The notes beneath the pieces were generated by a model. That model was not told where the DNA came from. It searched no databases and saw nothing but the letters and a program-made list of their open reading frames with translations. Source: Fredinandcohnia onubensis (GTDB lineage: Bacteria > Bacillota > Bacilli > Bacillales > Bacillaceae_L). From it: 64,000 nucleotides of DNA. Within the stretch, counting starts at the first letter, position 1, and every line of letters begins with the position of its first letter. Both the position numbers and the translations under genes were made by a program. Location: NCBI RefSeq assembly GCF_031181385.1, contig NZ_JAPSKV010000002.1, positions 1 through 64,000 of the forward strand, given 5' to 3'. Positions 1 through 61,718 of this stretch are shown piece after piece.

Positions 1-551
1 TCAACTTCCTGTTTTTAGGAGGTTTACGGTAGTCCAACTCTACTGGAGTTACATCAACTTCCTGTTTTTAGGAGGTTTACGGTAGTCCAACTCTACTGGA
101 GTTATACCAGTTCCCTTTTTTAGGAGGTTGACGGTAGTCCAACTCTACTGGAGTTACATCAACTTCCTGTTTTTAGGAGGTTGATGGTAGTCCAACTCTA
201 CTGGAGTTACATCAACTTCCTGTTTTTAGGAGGTTTACGGTAGTCCAACTCTACTGGAGTTACATCAACTTCCTGTTTTTAGGAGGTTGATGGTAGTCCA
301 ACTCTACTGGGGTTACACCAGTTCCCTTTTTTTAGGAGGTTGGCGGTAGTCCAACTCTACTGGAGTTACATCAACTTCCTGTTTTTAGGAGGTTTACGGT
401 AGTCCAACTCTACTGGAGTTACATCAACTTCCTGTTTTTAGGAGGTTTACGGTAGTCCAACTCTACTGGAGTTACATCAACTTCCTGTTTTTAGGAGGTT
501 GATGGTAGTCCAACTCTACTGTGGTTACATCAACTTCCTGTTTTTAGGAGA
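1..551. repeat. Tandem array of about ten 53-bp units (left edge truncated)
   Basis: Ten full units and a partial eleventh lie head to tail; unit starts fall at 1, 54 and then at steps of 52-53 up to 477 and 530. Each unit contains an inverted repeat with a T-rich loop (TCAACTTCCT, then GTTTTT, then AGGAGGTTGA) and a second short hairpin AACTC-TACTG-GAGTT. Variants differ mainly after AGGAGGTT (TACGG, GATGG, GACGG or GGCGG), and two units start CCAGTTCCC. The array lies downstream of the yjaZ-like gene, has no open reading frame and probably continues left of the window. It is not a CRISPR, since units abut without unique spacers. Confidence 0.95.
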
Positions 552-648: not shown

Positions 649-1296
649 TCAAAGATACTCCTTCACAAACTCCTTCGAGTCCACACCCATGATTGCGTTG
701 GTTTGTAACTTGTTAGCTTCCAAATATTGCTTAATTAAATAATAGCCTGCACAATAACCTGCCATCTTGGGGCTGAAGCCTTTTCCGTATAAAAGATCGT
801 TGTGTTTTCGTTCGTTTCTTTTTATAGTTCGGTTCGGAATTATTAGTTGTTTGACTAGTTTTTCAAGCTGTACATCGGAGTAATACTTCGTCCATCCCGC
901 TAGGTTCTCCGCCCCACAATGCTCACGAACTGCGTTTTCTGCAAGGCCCTCTAAGATCACCGTATCCAAAAAAGTTACGTCAGCTTCCTTCTTTTTATAT
1001 TTTTTCAAACGACACACATGATTGTATTCATGTGTGAGGACTGCTTTGATTTCGTCATGTGAATTATAAGGAGAGAAAAAAAGAAATAATTTGTCCTTAA
1101 AGGCAAGCCCTGATTTGCCATTATAATCTCTTTTGATTCTGGAGTTTGTTTCGTCTGCCGGGAAAATGAAGATTGGGACCTGCGGACCGTTCCATTTTTT
1201 TTGCAAGACACTATATTCTTTTTCTACTTTTCCCCATACGTTTTTAGGAAGGCTATCAAGTATGTTTCCAATAACTGACCTGTACATTCCGTGCAT
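649..1296 (-). CDS. yjaZ: YjaZ-like DUF2268 putative zinc protease, 5' end probably frameshifted
   Basis: A 215-residue product with HEYNH (residues 89-93), the HExxH zinc signature, followed by EGLAE (116-120), which probably supplies the third ligand; this is the DUF2268 family. It sits directly downstream of fabF as yjaZ does in B. subtilis, where the protein is about 46 residues longer. The frame stays open upstream to 1425 and would encode a plausible N-terminus (VIRTDQWLKES...), but no start codon lies in that frame. A GTG with a good Shine-Dalgarno (GGA, nine bases upstream) at 1419-1421 would be in frame if the G run at 1416-1419 had one more base. So the gene is either truncated by a one-base deletion, restarted at Met 1296, or affected by a sequencing error. 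Confidence 0.75.
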   Translation of the reverse strand: MHGMYRSVIGNILDSLPKNVWGKVEKEYSVLQKKWNGPQVPIFIFPADETNSRIKRDYNGKSGLAFKDKLFLFFSPYNSHDEIKAVLTHEYNHVCRLKKYKKKEADVTFLDTVILEGLAENAVREHCGAENLAGWTKYYSDVQLEKLVKQLIIPNRTIKRNERKHNDLLYGKGFSPKMAGYCAGYYLIKQYLEANKLQTNAIMGVDSKEFVKEYL

Positions 1297-1466
1297 TTTT
1301 AAATACTGATAAATCTCACGTTCTGAAGCCTTATTTGAAAAATAGCTCCTTAGTTTTTTACAAAGATTTACTGGATTTTCATGTGACTCCTTCAGCCATT
1401 GGTCTGTACGGATTACCCCACGTCACCACATCCTTTCTCCACCTCATTATCGTATTCAGTTTTCAT

Positions 1467-57384: not shown

Positions 57385-57603
57385 ATGCCCTCAATAGTAG
57401 GACCAATCAAAATCAATAGTGTCGGTGGTGGAGTCGTTAATTTCGGGGACTCCTTCTATGTTTCACCAAAGAGCACAGGCAAGACATATTCAGGCTCAGG
57501 CTCGTTTAATACAGGTGACTTTATCTGTACAAATAACGGTTTGAATGCTACAAATACAAATGATGAAGATTTTGCAGACCAACTTATAAAAAAGAATGCG
57601 TAG
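57385..57603 (+). CDS. gerPF: Spore germination protein GerPF
   Basis: A 72-residue paralogue of GerPA: MPSIVGPIKINSVGGGVVNF, SPKSTGKTYSGSGSFNTGDF. AAAGGATGACG precedes the ATG. Last of the six gerP genes; no hairpin terminator follows at once, the 53-bp array begins about 65 bases downstream. Confidence 0.92.
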   Translation: MPSIVGPIKINSVGGGVVNFGDSFYVSPKSTGKTYSGSGSFNTGDFICTNNGLNATNTNDEDFADQLIKKNA

Positions 57604-57669
57604 AAAAATACTAACAGTAAGTAATTTTAACACGATGCGATGGCTAGATTCTTAAGCTAATGTTTTTTT

Positions 57670-58236
57670 GGTATATTACCGTATCGTTTTACGATAAGTG
57701 GTATATCGATTTGATTTTATTCGGGATACCTACACATCGTTTTTCGATAAGTGGTATACCGTTTAGGCTCTTTTCGGGATACCTACACATCGTTTTACGA
57801 TAAGTGGTATACCGATTAGACTCTATTCGGGATATCTCCACATCGTTTTTCGTAAATGCTATATCGATTAGGCTCTATTCGGGATACCTATACATCGTTT
57901 TACGATAAATAGTATATCGATTAGGCTCTATTCGGGATACCTACACATCGTTTTTCGATAAATGCTATATCGATTAGGCTTTATTCGGGATACCTACACA
58001 TCGTTTTACGGTAAGTGGTATACCGATTAGGCTCTTTTCGGGATACCTGCACATCGTTTTTCGATAAGTGGTATACCGATTAGGCTCTTTTCGGGATACC
58101 TATACATCGTTTTACGATAAATAGTATATCGATTAGGCTCTTTTCGGGATACCTATACATCGTTTTACGATAAATAGTATATCGATTAGGCTCTATTCGG
58201 GATACCTACACATCGTTTTACGGTAAGTGCTATACC
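57670..58236. repeat. Second tandem array of 53-bp units, about 11 copies
   Basis: Unit pattern GGGATACCTACACATCG, T-rich loop, CGATAAGTGGTATACC, GATTAGGCTCT; unit starts advance by 53 bases (for example TCGGGAT at 57721 and 57774). Each unit has a hairpin around ATCG-TTTTT-CGAT and a second possible pairing GGTATACCGA with TCGGGATACC. Loop variants TTTTA and TTTTT alternate strictly through the first nine copies, giving a 106-bp super-period. Located between convergent gerPF and sbcC. No coding function. Confidence 0.95.
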
Positions 58237-58301
58237 TCAACGGCCTAATGAATATATTTCGACCACGAATGTTTCGGCTACTACTTGCATTGTTCAGTAG
58301 A

Positions 58302-58327
58302 AAAAGGCCATTTCTGGCCTTTTTTCT
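58302..58327. terminator. Terminator after sbcC
   Basis: GAAAAAGGCCA / TGGCCTTTTTC with loop TTTC, just beyond the sbcC stop and beside the array. Confidence 0.88.
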
Positions 58328-58331
58328 TTTT

Positions 58332-61300
58332 CTATAAAGTTTCTAATTTTACAAGCGTACCTCTGCCCGAAGGCTCTGCTGGTTCAACAATTAGACGTTT
58401 TGGCAATCTTGCCCTTAATTCCTGAACATGGCTAATGACGCCTACCGCTAACTGTTTTGAGTGAAGTTTTTCAAGTGCCGATACAACCGTATCCAATAAA
58501 TCTGCGTCCAGTGTTCCGAAGCCTTCGTCTAGGAAGAAGAATTGTAATGGATATTCTCCCCTTAGCTGGATTTGAGCAGAAAGTGATAATGCCAACGCCA
58601 ATGATGTTAAGAACGTTTCTCCACCGGAAAGGGTTGTCACAGGTCTTCTTACACCACCATTTGCATCATCCCTCATAATAAATCCGCCCTGCGAATCCAC
58701 TTCAACAGCATAACGCTGCCTTGTTAAAATACTAAGTCGCTCTGTAGCATCATGACTTACTTGAACGAGTTGTTCTTCGGCAATATATTCTACGAAGCTA
58801 TTTCCTTTGAATACGGATTGTAGCTTATTATATTGCTCTACTAATTTATCTAATTTAATGCGGTTATCTTCAAGCTCGTTGAAACGCTCATGTTTATCTA
58901 AAAGCACTTGGAGAGCTTTTAAAGCTGCTCCTTTCGCTTCTACTGCTTGATTTAGCATCTCTTTCATTTCCGTACGGATTATTTGGATTTCTTCCCATTT
59001 TTCTTTTGTTAGTTCTTCGCCATTAAGTAAATCATTTACTTTTTGCAAATCAGTTTGGATTTGCTTGTAACGATCCCAAAACAAGTCGATTTGTTTTTGT
59101 AGTTCTTCCTGCACTTGTTTGGAAAGAAGCGATTCCTTCACATCGGATATTGAATTGAAACTTGTAGTCTCAAGCACATCTGTCCATTTTGCTGTTGCTT
59201 TTTCACTTCGAACCTTATCATCTTGTACGGCCTGTATGGCGGCATGGGTTTCGTTTTCGAGTTTTTGACATTGTGATTGGACCATTTGCCAAGCTTCATA
59301 CGCGATACTCTCAGTTTCTTCAAGCTTTTTAACCATTTGCTCGGTTTCAGCCATGAGCTGCTTGATGTTGTTGTCTCCAACTTCTTTTGAAAGCTTTTCA
59401 TGTGCCTCAGTTAATGCCTCGAGTTTACCCTTTAAGGTTGAATTGATTTCAACAATTTGGCGATCAATGCTATTACAGTCATCCTGATATTTCTTCTTTT
59501 CCTGTTCTTTTCGTTCTAATAGATTATTTCCATTTTCGATTTCAACAGAAAGACTTTGTGCCAACTTATCATTTTTGGAGATTTCCCCAAGCTTCGCTTC
59601 AATTGTTTCAAAATCAAGCTGATGGAAAGTTCGCTTCCAATTCATGAACTGTTCCTTCATTTTTTCTTGTAAACTCGCAACCCGCACTTCCAGTTCATGA
59701 TAAGATTTCGTGCTAATTGATATTGTCTGTTCAAGCTGACTTACTTTTTGCATGACAGCTCGAATCTCTTGGATCACTTTTCTTCCTGTTTCTTGAATCT
59801 TTAAGTAATCCTGATGTAATGATTTTTGTTCGACAATAAGAAATTGAAGTTTTTCGGTGACATCTTCCATTTCCTGATCGTTTACCACCATATTAGCTTT
59901 TGGAGGGATAGTCATTTCACCTGGATATTCTTGTACAAGCCCCCCAGAAATTTGTTCAAGTTTAATTTTTAATGTAGAAAACTCTTGTTTTACATTACGG
60001 GCTGTTGCAATCTCATTTGTCAATTTTTCAATTTGTGTTTCTAAGGCATCTCCATAATCCTCATGAACAACTGGATTCGGGTGATGGGTAGATCCACAGA
60101 CTGGACATGGTTGCCCAGATTGAAGCTGGCTAGCAAGTCTGATGGCAAGATTATTTCTACGGCTATCCTCTAATTCTTGCTTAAGCCTAGATAATTTAAC
60201 CTCAGCAAATCCTATAACTTTTTCGCATTCTTTATCCCGTTCACAAACCGTTTCATATGTTGATGCATTTTTTATAAAGATGGTTTCCATTTTGTGTTTA
60301 GCTTGGGCAAGATTCTCATTCTGAGAATGCAGCTTTTCTTGCGTTTGCTCAAGCTGTACGCGACTCTTTTCTAATTCCGTCTGTTGTTCCTTAAGGTTTT
60401 CTGTGGAGAACATAATGGATTGTTTCATTTGATTCGCTTTTTGAAGCTCTTCACGAACATCCGCTGAAACAGTTAACTGAGTCAGTTTTTCTCTCCGTTC
60501 TTTTTGCATTCCTGAGTCTGATGTAATGGAAACTGTGATCGCTTCAACCTGATTTTGTTTTTCACGTACAAGTGATTGTAAGTTATTCACCTTTTGTTGT
60601 AGTTCATTTACTTCCTTTTCAAGACCGTTTGCTCTTTCCTGAACAATGATCGCATCTGAAAGTTTTTGCTTCTTGGTTAGATAATACGGTAGCTTTTCAG
60701 TCTTTTCCTCACGTGCCTGATGATACTCATTGGCCTTGATTTCATTTTCCTCTTTTTTTGCCGTTAACTGGCTTTGTAGGGATTGATAACGAACAGTTGC
60801 TTTTTCTAAAGCATCCTTCGCCGTTTCATATTCCTCCAGATAAGGCAGGATAAGAGCAGCTGTTTCTGCATTCTCCCGTTTTTCTTCTAGCTGAAGAATT
60901 TGCGGCTTCTCTTGTTCAATTTCAACTAATTTTTGTGATAAAGCGCTCTTTTCCAGCTGCCATTGCCATATATTTTTGCTTTTTTCAAAATCAGCCTCTA
61001 TGTTATTAACTTCGTTTTGACGTTTATTAAGAAGGACCTCTGTTTCTTTTAGCTCTTGTTCTGCAGCTTTAATTGCTTCTGTTGAAGCATCCCCAAGACC
61101 AGCCTGCTCAGCTGTTACTTCGTTTAACTCATTTTTTGCTTTCGTTAGCTTATTCTTTAACTTTTTATTAAGCTTGTCCCCATATTGTTCAAGATTGAAT
61201 AGACGTTGAAGCATTTGTCTACGGTCCGCACCCTTCAGTGATAAGAACTCTGAGAATTTCCCTTGTGGTAATACGACTGCTCTCGTAAAGTCATCAATCG

Positions 61301-61718
61301 TCAAGCCTAATAAATCCTGTACGCACTGATTTACCTCACCTATTTTATCAGCCAGGACAACTGATTCCTCTCCTACTTCAATGATCCGACTCACTGAAGA
61401 TTTGACCTTTAAGTCGTCCTGTCGTTTAAAGCTACGTTCAATCATATATCGGTTTGTTCCTTTGGCATTTTCAAGTTCAAAAATAAAAGAAACATGAAGC
61501 TGATTTTCTGCATGATTCAGAATCCCATGGGTATTATTCGATGCGCGCTCCACCTTTCCATACAAGGCAAGTGTCATAGCATCAAGGATTGAGGATTTTC
61601 CACTTCCAGTTGGACCAAATATCCCAAAAACTCCCTCTTCACAAAGGGAACCAAAATCAACAGTTTGTTTCTCTCGGAAGCTATGAAGCCCCGCTACTGT
61701 GAGTGTAATTGGTTTCAT
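58332..61718 (-). CDS. sbcC: SbcC, ATPase subunit of the SbcCD nuclease
   Basis: A 1128-residue Rad50-like SMC protein: Walker A GPTGSGKSSILDAM near residue 35, long coiled coils, zinc hook QPCPVCGSTHHP near the middle, ABC signature TTLSGGETFLTSLALA and Walker B FFLDEGFGTLD near the end. With SbcD it cleaves hairpins and blocked DNA ends. Its ATG overlaps the sbcD stop (ATGA). The two hairpin-rich arrays in this window are the sort of structure SbcCD attacks. Confidence 0.96.
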   Translation of the reverse strand: MKPITLTVAGLHSFREKQTVDFGSLCEEGVFGIFGPTGSGKSSILDAMTLALYGKVERASNNTHGILNHAENQLHVSFIFELENAKGTNRYMIERSFKRQDDLKVKSSVSRIIEVGEESVVLADKIGEVNQCVQDLLGLTIDDFTRAVVLPQGKFSEFLSLKGADRRQMLQRLFNLEQYGDKLNKKLKNKLTKAKNELNEVTAEQAGLGDASTEAIKAAEQELKETEVLLNKRQNEVNNIEADFEKSKNIWQWQLEKSALSQKLVEIEQEKPQILQLEEKRENAETAALILPYLEEYETAKDALEKATVRYQSLQSQLTAKKEENEIKANEYHQAREEKTEKLPYYLTKKQKLSDAIIVQERANGLEKEVNELQQKVNNLQSLVREKQNQVEAITVSITSDSGMQKERREKLTQLTVSADVREELQKANQMKQSIMFSTENLKEQQTELEKSRVQLEQTQEKLHSQNENLAQAKHKMETIFIKNASTYETVCERDKECEKVIGFAEVKLSRLKQELEDSRRNNLAIRLASQLQSGQPCPVCGSTHHPNPVVHEDYGDALETQIEKLTNEIATARNVKQEFSTLKIKLEQISGGLVQEYPGEMTIPPKANMVVNDQEMEDVTEKLQFLIVEQKSLHQDYLKIQETGRKVIQEIRAVMQKVSQLEQTISISTKSYHELEVRVASLQEKMKEQFMNWKRTFHQLDFETIEAKLGEISKNDKLAQSLSVEIENGNNLLERKEQEKKKYQDDCNSIDRQIVEINSTLKGKLEALTEAHEKLSKEVGDNNIKQLMAETEQMVKKLEETESIAYEAWQMVQSQCQKLENETHAAIQAVQDDKVRSEKATAKWTDVLETTSFNSISDVKESLLSKQVQEELQKQIDLFWDRYKQIQTDLQKVNDLLNGEELTKEKWEEIQIIRTEMKEMLNQAVEAKGAALKALQVLLDKHERFNELEDNRIKLDKLVEQYNKLQSVFKGNSFVEYIAEEQLVQVSHDATERLSILTRQRYAVEVDSQGGFIMRDDANGGVRRPVTTLSGGETFLTSLALALSLSAQIQLRGEYPLQFFFLDEGFGTLDADLLDTVVSALEKLHSKQLAVGVISHVQELRARLPKRLIVEPAEPSGRGTLVKLETL

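Follow-up and report, generated by a model that had tools for sequence, protein, structure and literature searches.

Tandem arrays of 53-bp units in Fredinandcohnia onubensis belong to a class of intergenic satellites in which unrelated families share one unit length

The DNA analyzed here, a window of 64,000 bp from Fredinandcohnia onubensis, contains two tandem arrays, each of which consists of 10.4 units of 53 bp according to Tandem Repeats Finder (TRF). Array 1 (1..550, forward strand, 92% matches, 0% indels) represents family A (cluster FAM 1) and array 2 (57683..58234, reverse strand, 89% matches, 0% indels) represents family B (cluster FAM 0). A preliminary description made from the letters of the window had placed two 53-bp arrays with about ten to eleven copies at 1-551 and 57670-58236, had noted the lack of obvious similarity between them and had located both downstream of leftward genes, the second one between convergent genes. 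All of this stands: TRF returned the same period, the earlier start at 57670 merely takes in a degenerate edge of array 2, the units of the two arrays fall into different clusters (joining score 28, null maximum 16), and the neighbors, called as longest open reading frames and not taken from an annotation, were identified by Pfam. The 3' end of a yjaZ-like gene (652..1422, reverse strand; Pfam PF10026, E 6.8e-58) points towards array 1. Its product is a predicted DUF2268 protease, and relatives of the gene are present in 17 of 17 genomes of the family. Array 2 is flanked by the 3' ends of a spore germination gene of the gerPA/gerPF type (57385..57603, forward strand; PF10676, E 1.5e-29) and of sbcC (58332..61718, reverse strand; Pfam AAA_23 and SbcC_Walker_B). 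Between the germination gene and array 2 lies the left edge of an inserted segment (57604..57682), which by eye consists in part of degenerate array units; its right edge (58235..58299), recognized by comparison with empty gaps in relatives, is followed by a terminator-like hairpin next to the sbcC stop codon (58300..58325, forward strand), which was identified by a terminator scan together with the gap comparison, the scan having found one hairpin where 1.2 were expected from shuffles.

Array 1 begins at base 1 of contig C29 in an assembly of 39 contigs and is truncated by the contig start. The end of a second contig, C37, is formed by the same repeat in the same orientation (93% identity), and the last gene on C37 encodes a NERD domain (Pfam); orthologues of this gene adjoin the yjaZ array in four relatives (G001, G003, G004 and G005). 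Since both the shared repeat and the position of the NERD gene orthologues point to it, C37 and C29 very probably meet inside array 1, where the assembly would have broken. Array 1 is then very probably longer than 551 bp and, like array 2, situated between convergent genes.

Are the two arrays of equal unit length by accident? Non-coding arrays with at least 2.5 copies were collected from three genomes of the genus that had been sampled regardless of arrays, namely 604 kb of the F. onubensis genome itself (G000), which include the window, along with 400 kb from G007 and 380 kb from G006. Periods of 52, 53 or 104 bp accounted for 20 of the 32 arrays, periods of 20-21 or 40-42 bp for a further ten, and the remaining two had units of 187 and 294 bp; arrays in coding DNA of the same sample had periods that were mostly multiples of three. 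When 83 kb of intergenic DNA from G000 were examined in a lag spectrum, there were 716 counting windows at lag 52 and 966 at lag 53, five at lag 60 and zero at lags 45-51 and 54-59, which rules out a chance match of two periods. The spectrum of G007 was similar, with 25 additional counting windows at lag 51; in G006 there were 20-34 at each other lag and 86 at lag 60. Representatives of two other genera of the family followed suit (lags 51, 52 and some 50 in G010; lag 52 and some 51 in G015), and no such arrays were found in 100 kb sampled from each of three genomes of other families. The equal length that the preliminary description had singled out is therefore an instance of a genome-wide rule that also holds in the samples from the two other genera, and the broad spread of unit lengths that would have spoken against it was not observed, the other intergenic classes being those of 20-21 and 40-42 bp and a few long repeats. 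Some 52-bp arrays are organized in higher-order units of 104 bp with alternating monomer types (L086 7368-7860, L189 9881-10210 and L050 1180-1547).

A total of 89 distinct arrays with periods of 45-60 bp formed 16 clusters (threshold 28, null maximum 16), several unlike clusters of 52-53 bp coexisting in each of G000, G006 and G007. All 87 arrays of the genus in this period range had units of either 52 bp (18 arrays) or 53 bp (69 arrays), although most of them were retrieved by their resemblance to the window arrays and some clusters are maybe remote relatives of one another. With the exception of one FAM 0 array, the period was constant inside every cluster of the genus. The same constancy is seen at the level of single units: all 578 whole units measured 51-54 bp, and the modal length was found for 437 of the 474 units in 53-bp arrays and for 96 of the 104 units in 52-bp arrays. 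When the 87 arrays were aligned to their own consensus sequences, 188 indel events were counted along with 2723 substitutions (0.069 indels per substitution), compared to 83 indel events per 508 substitutions (0.163) in orthologous flanks from three genomes, a contrast that may be inflated because TRF disfavors indels. The arrays are intergenic, and the length of 52-53 bp persists over many families as copy number, sites and the family residing at one and the same site vary.

Families A and B are themselves narrowly distributed. Whole-genome searches of G000 returned eight places for family A, two of which overlap a single array and two of which are the ends of C37 and C29, and eleven for family B. 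Among 80 genomes (own included), family A occurred in six and family B in eight, all of one genus, and neither was detected in any of the 71 genomes outside the genus. A motif scan for family B in named genomes matched 44 stretches, of which about four are to be expected by chance; 38 of them belong to Bacillus timonensis, F. onubensis and the Bacillus strains REN16 and HNG, and the other six are single matches in unrelated taxa.

Repeats of constant length in Bacilli were reportedly first described as a class in a 2020 paper in the Journal of Bacteriology. Subirana and Messeguer (2021; PMC8161180, considered here in part) reported Bacillus repeats of 51-53 and 20-21 nt with constant size and variable sequence, the 51-53 nt repeats being present in about 30% of the Bacillus species examined there, and roles in nucleoid protein binding or as small RNAs have already been proposed there. 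Arrays 1 and 2 are new members of these satellites. They share with the part of the published account considered here the unit length, the presence of several unlike families per genome, mostly 4-20 copies, the companion class of 20-21 bp and a partial conservation of arrays between related genomes with variable copy number; they differ in that the units of families A and B measure 53 bp instead of 52 bp and that both families were detected in one genus only. Units of 51-53 bp in several unrelated families per genome, partially conserved and accompanied by few other non-coding lengths, are what our samples contain. Three results presented below, i.e., arrays at the ends of rRNA operons, the comparison with empty sites and a hairpin unit that crosses genus borders, are not described in the part of PMC8161180 considered, whose main text does not contain the words terminator, ribosomal, convergent, hairpin or palindrom-.

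The preliminary description had also ascribed a common stem-loop architecture to both arrays. Two units of array 1 or of array 2 indeed give better folds than shuffled units placed in tandem (60 shuffles each) on both strands, with p values of 0.016-0.033, but compensatory changes in the stems are not convincing in either family, as the observed percentage of stem pairing was equalled by 162 of 500 shuffles in family A and by 23 of 500 in family B. As a general rule for all arrays, the proposal is not supported: the mean folding z score was below -1 in 11 of the 16 clusters, and five clusters gave no clear excess folding. Hairpins are common, yet they are not the feature that all arrays share, and the idea that each family has a hairpin or a half-period dyad was likewise not supported across the clusters. 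Nor does either window array look like a string of intrinsic terminators, as none was scored in array 2 and two were scored in array 1, overall not above shuffles. Searches of Rfam 15 at gathering scores gave no match within the window, and only rRNA, tRNA, T-box and purine riboswitch families reached the threshold at the other array loci; on these searches, membership of the arrays in a known structured RNA family was rejected.

One alternative is that the arrays act as RNA. Read-through transcription would produce chains of hairpins with a role in fail-safe termination, in protection of 3' ends, as sponges or as small RNAs, and the unit length would be set by folding or processing. The excess folding of the window arrays on both strands and the z scores of the 11 clusters speak for such a role, and transcription of 52-nt repeats has been reported for B. 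coagulans (PMC8625621, considered in part). The five clusters that keep the length without clear excess folding, the window families with their unconvincing compensation and the failure of Rfam to match the arrays speak against it. We regard an RNA role as the explanation of unit length as somewhat unlikely, and several of the observations below bear on it.

One 52-bp family, present with 85 adjacent pairs in the F. onubensis genome, is built on the core TTCAT-N7-ATGAA, and its units are laid out as a palindrome of about 27 bp alternating with a linker of about 25 bp. This layout is reminiscent of CRISPR. The window arrays, however, repeat their linkers as well, as whole 53-bp units at 89-92%, where CRISPR has unique spacers, and a likeness to CRISPR was remarked and dismissed by the describers of the constant-length repeats (PMC8161180, the part considered). 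At the array loci collected, outer stem positions 4 and 5 pair in 91 and 75 of 106 cases, above the maxima of 69 and 61 reached in 1000 shuffles, and pairing at positions 1-3 does not exceed the shuffles (both strands counted, units non-independent).

A search for two such cores separated by a free gap that allowed units of 37-67 bp was carried out in 396 genomes of the order and matched in 56 genomes belonging to 28 of 135 genera. The reversed pattern gave a single match in one of the 396 genomes; a control palindrome of the same layout, TTACT-N7-AGTAA, matched in none of them and its reverse in four. In a sample of 398 genomes from the phylum, the core pair was found only in F. onubensis itself, apart from one match with a unit of 45 that we take for chance. 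For 54 hand-chosen rows from 18 genomes among the matches listed, the unit was 52 bp in 50 cases, 51 in two, 53 in one and 57 in one. The 57-bp row (G090) was dropped as a chance match, which left 53 rows from 17 genomes for a test of compensation. Among these rows, outer pair 2 was CG in 32, TA in seven and AT in four rows, outer pair 3 was TA in 26, GC in 14 and AT in four, and outer pair 5 was TA in 40 and AT in seven; the sixth position does not pair. With one consensus per genome for the 17 genomes, none of 5000 shuffles reached the pairing observed among the matches listed, and the outer stem of the TTCAT unit varies with compensation across these genomes. Two units in print, one from B. 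coagulans (8_52_18) and one from B. litoralis (42_52_9), also contain the TTCAT core by eye (PMC8161180, Table 1, paper considered in part).

The compensated TTCAT-N7-ATGAA stem in 17 genomes supports a role as RNA; such compensation is compatible with a hairpin, be it of RNA or of single-stranded DNA, and just as well with a dyad-symmetric site in duplex DNA. A surplus of G-U over A-C wobbles on the sense strand, as defined by the upstream gene, did not emerge: 16 G-U cells stand against 30 A-C cells, all of them non-independent and 20 of the 30 A-C cells coming from just two arrays that follow rRNA operons of related species. This, too, argues against RNA.

A preference for gene ends and especially for 3'-3' gaps had been suspected on the basis of the two window arrays. 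Ten of 38 classifiable arrays (44 less six at edges) are located in convergent gaps, compared with 115 convergent ones among 928 array-free gaps (p=0.02), with the proviso that 12 of the 38 originate from stretches picked for arrays and that some are orthologues. In the part sampled regardless of arrays, the count is 5 of 26 (p=0.36). Of 16 arrays in codirectional gaps, 13 are nearer to the 3' end of the upstream gene (p=0.02, two gaps counted twice); when calculated per gene end, 3' ends (17 of 1075) and 5' ends (16 of 1083) do not differ. A preference of the arrays for gene ends is weakly supported. The genes beside the arrays are of many kinds.

The ends of rRNA operons, on the other hand, are enriched for arrays. 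Out of 55 5S rRNA matches in seven genomes, 51 were inspected on their downstream side; at 11 of these an array of 51-53 or 104 bp occurred within 1400 bp, and these arrays belong to several families. Considering operon ends without a following tRNA in the genus, 7 of 12 carry an array, compared to 17 of 1075 gene 3' ends; the corresponding p value of 7e-10 should not be taken at face value, because operon copies are non-independent and because the count was prompted by family B arrays abutting 5S genes. Decayed family B units can be seen by eye at one of the operon ends for which no array was called (C14), and additional arrays of family B in G004, G005 and G006 stop near 5S ends where contigs break. 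At the rRNA operons, the array is placed beyond a hairpin that resembles the rRNA terminator, a position that is unfavorable for an RNA role. Family B was oriented opposite to transcription in 14 codirectional gaps and along with it in three, and opposite in 8 of 8 cases at rRNA operons; because the loci include many orthologues and operon copies, no conclusion on an orientation rule was drawn.

Comparison of orthologous gaps provides information about the birth of the arrays. In G001, G002, G003, G007 and G008, only 30-35 bp separate the gerPA/gerPF-type gene from sbcC, and they contain a terminator-like hairpin without any array. G000, G004 and G006 have kept the terminator-like hairpin by the sbcC stop codon, and the array with its edges precedes it; these orthologous arrays contain 10.4, 6.8 and 16.8 units, respectively. 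G005 has no close sbcC match. The sbcC array thus arose in a gap of which five relatives have the short form with nothing but a terminator-like hairpin. Positioned between the stop codon of the gerP-type gene and the kept terminator in G000, G004 and G006, it may be part of that transcript, which would be in favor of an RNA role.

The yjaZ gap tells of exchange. It contains the 53-bp family A in G000, G001, G003 and G005, and the two genomes closest to G000, namely G004 and G006, carry a different family of 52 bp there. For G002, G007 and G008 no array call was made, although units like those of G004 are visible by eye in G007. The NERD gene's terminator-like hairpin has a loop similar to the array unit in both G004 and G006 (L237 978-1090 and L238 1128-1239), with only 1 and 0 of 500 shuffles scoring as high, and the distance from the hairpin to the first unit is 104 bp in G004 and 103 bp in G006, equal to two periods.

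These observations lend themselves to an account without function, in which a mutational process yields arrays of 52-53 bp, mostly at terminators and transcription ends; hairpins might cause the slippage, or a polymerase, a nuclease or a repair patch might fix the length that is copied. The new array in the terminator-only sbcC gap, the unlike families in the same yjaZ gap, the concentration of arrays from several families at rRNA operon ends and the terminator loop that resembles an array unit 103-104 bp before the first one in G004 and G006 speak for it. Against it stand the lower number of indels per substitution in arrays than in flanks, the compensated TTCAT unit, whose length of 52 bp is maintained in 28 genera, which pure mutation does not predict, and the absence of arrays from whole clades of the order and from three sampled genomes. 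We consider this account unlikely.

Spreading of the arrays as mobile elements also has to be considered. Array flanks match mainly at orthologous loci and between rRNA operon copies, no fixed element end was seen, and a mobile element with fixed ends was rejected for this reason, short flank matches across families notwithstanding. Repeats of the REP/BIME type are likewise intergenic palindromes that are enriched in convergent and codirectional gaps and often near 3' ends (PMC3733652, considered in part), and an origin through a RAYT transposase would accord with the palindromic structure of many families, their intergenic sites and some enrichment in convergent gaps. The arrays differ from REP/BIME in that whole units follow head to tail at a fixed pitch and that the Y1_Tnp matches and the flank comparison showed neither a tagged solitary element nor a clear RAYT gene. 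The genome has only two Y1_Tnp matches, one of them partial and each with an internal stop codon, which are at most candidates for a RAYT. On the basis of these matches and the flank comparison, such an origin was discarded as highly improbable. Intergenic minisatellites with units in a similar size range are known from mycobacteria as MIRU.

What all families have in common is length. Equal length without equal sequence points to a geometric constraint, the cause of which was posed as a question by the describers of the class. One turn of the DNA helix takes 10.5 bp, and 52-53 bp correspond to about five turns. The reading that we tentatively prefer, though we hold it to be somewhat less likely than not, is selection on the spacing of sites along duplex DNA, i.e., helically phased binding by one or several proteins at the ends of transcription units. 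Each unit would turn the same face to a protein, or to several related ones; the putative protein would assemble along the array and hold or bridge the DNA at transcription-unit ends; slippage and unequal recombination would make and homogenize the copies, and units out of phase would be lost. We favor phased binding to duplex DNA because length is the sole feature common to all families, because clusters whose folding shows no clear excess retain it, and because each of the two length classes lies close to a whole number of turns, the 20-21 bp class corresponding to about two (likewise noted in the part of PMC8161180 considered). Also counted in its favor were the lag spectrum of G000, the 87 arrays of the genus at 52 or 53 bp, the fewer indels per substitution in arrays, the 52-bp spacing of the TTCAT core, its compensation, which suits a symmetric duplex site as much as a hairpin, and the missing G-U surplus on the sense strand.

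On the opposite side, we know of no protein that binds the arrays. The TTCAT half-sites are about 17 bp apart, which is not a whole number of turns, and with sequences so different between families, several proteins or a single one that reads shape would be required. The weak 3'-end preference and the transcription of arrays reported for B. coagulans (PMC8625621, the part considered) were counted against phased binding as well. A kind of bacterial satellite chromatin, in which an ancient TTCAT-N7-ATGAA hairpin or dyad and its functional equivalents of different sequence, all set at five turns, would be bound by a putative conserved protein and maintain local topology where rRNA operons and further transcription units end, seems to us unlikely. 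The rRNA operon ends, the birth of an array in a terminator gap and the hairpin found in 28 genera supply concrete sites and a motif with which binding, RNA and mutational accounts can be separated.

Further repeats came to light in the same samples. The second intergenic class with units of 20-21 or 40-42 bp, which is the published 20-21 nt class, contains short cores such as TTAGGGCACAAT, AGTGGCAGTA and TATGGGACA (L055 18130-18231, L062 9493-9618, L068 10669-10783, L085 19304-19419, L153 6555-6942 and L195 15392-15601). Repeats of 153-154 bp with a GCATACGCATTTC...GCGTATGC hairpin are present at several places in two species (L070 12581-12949; L071 1347-1668 and 16019-16394; L154 19634-20000). 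The 187-bp repeat of G006 (4.9 copies, L183 7485-8398) carries a GCCTTCCGG...CCGGAAGGC hairpin that is followed by T-rich DNA and looks terminator-like by eye.
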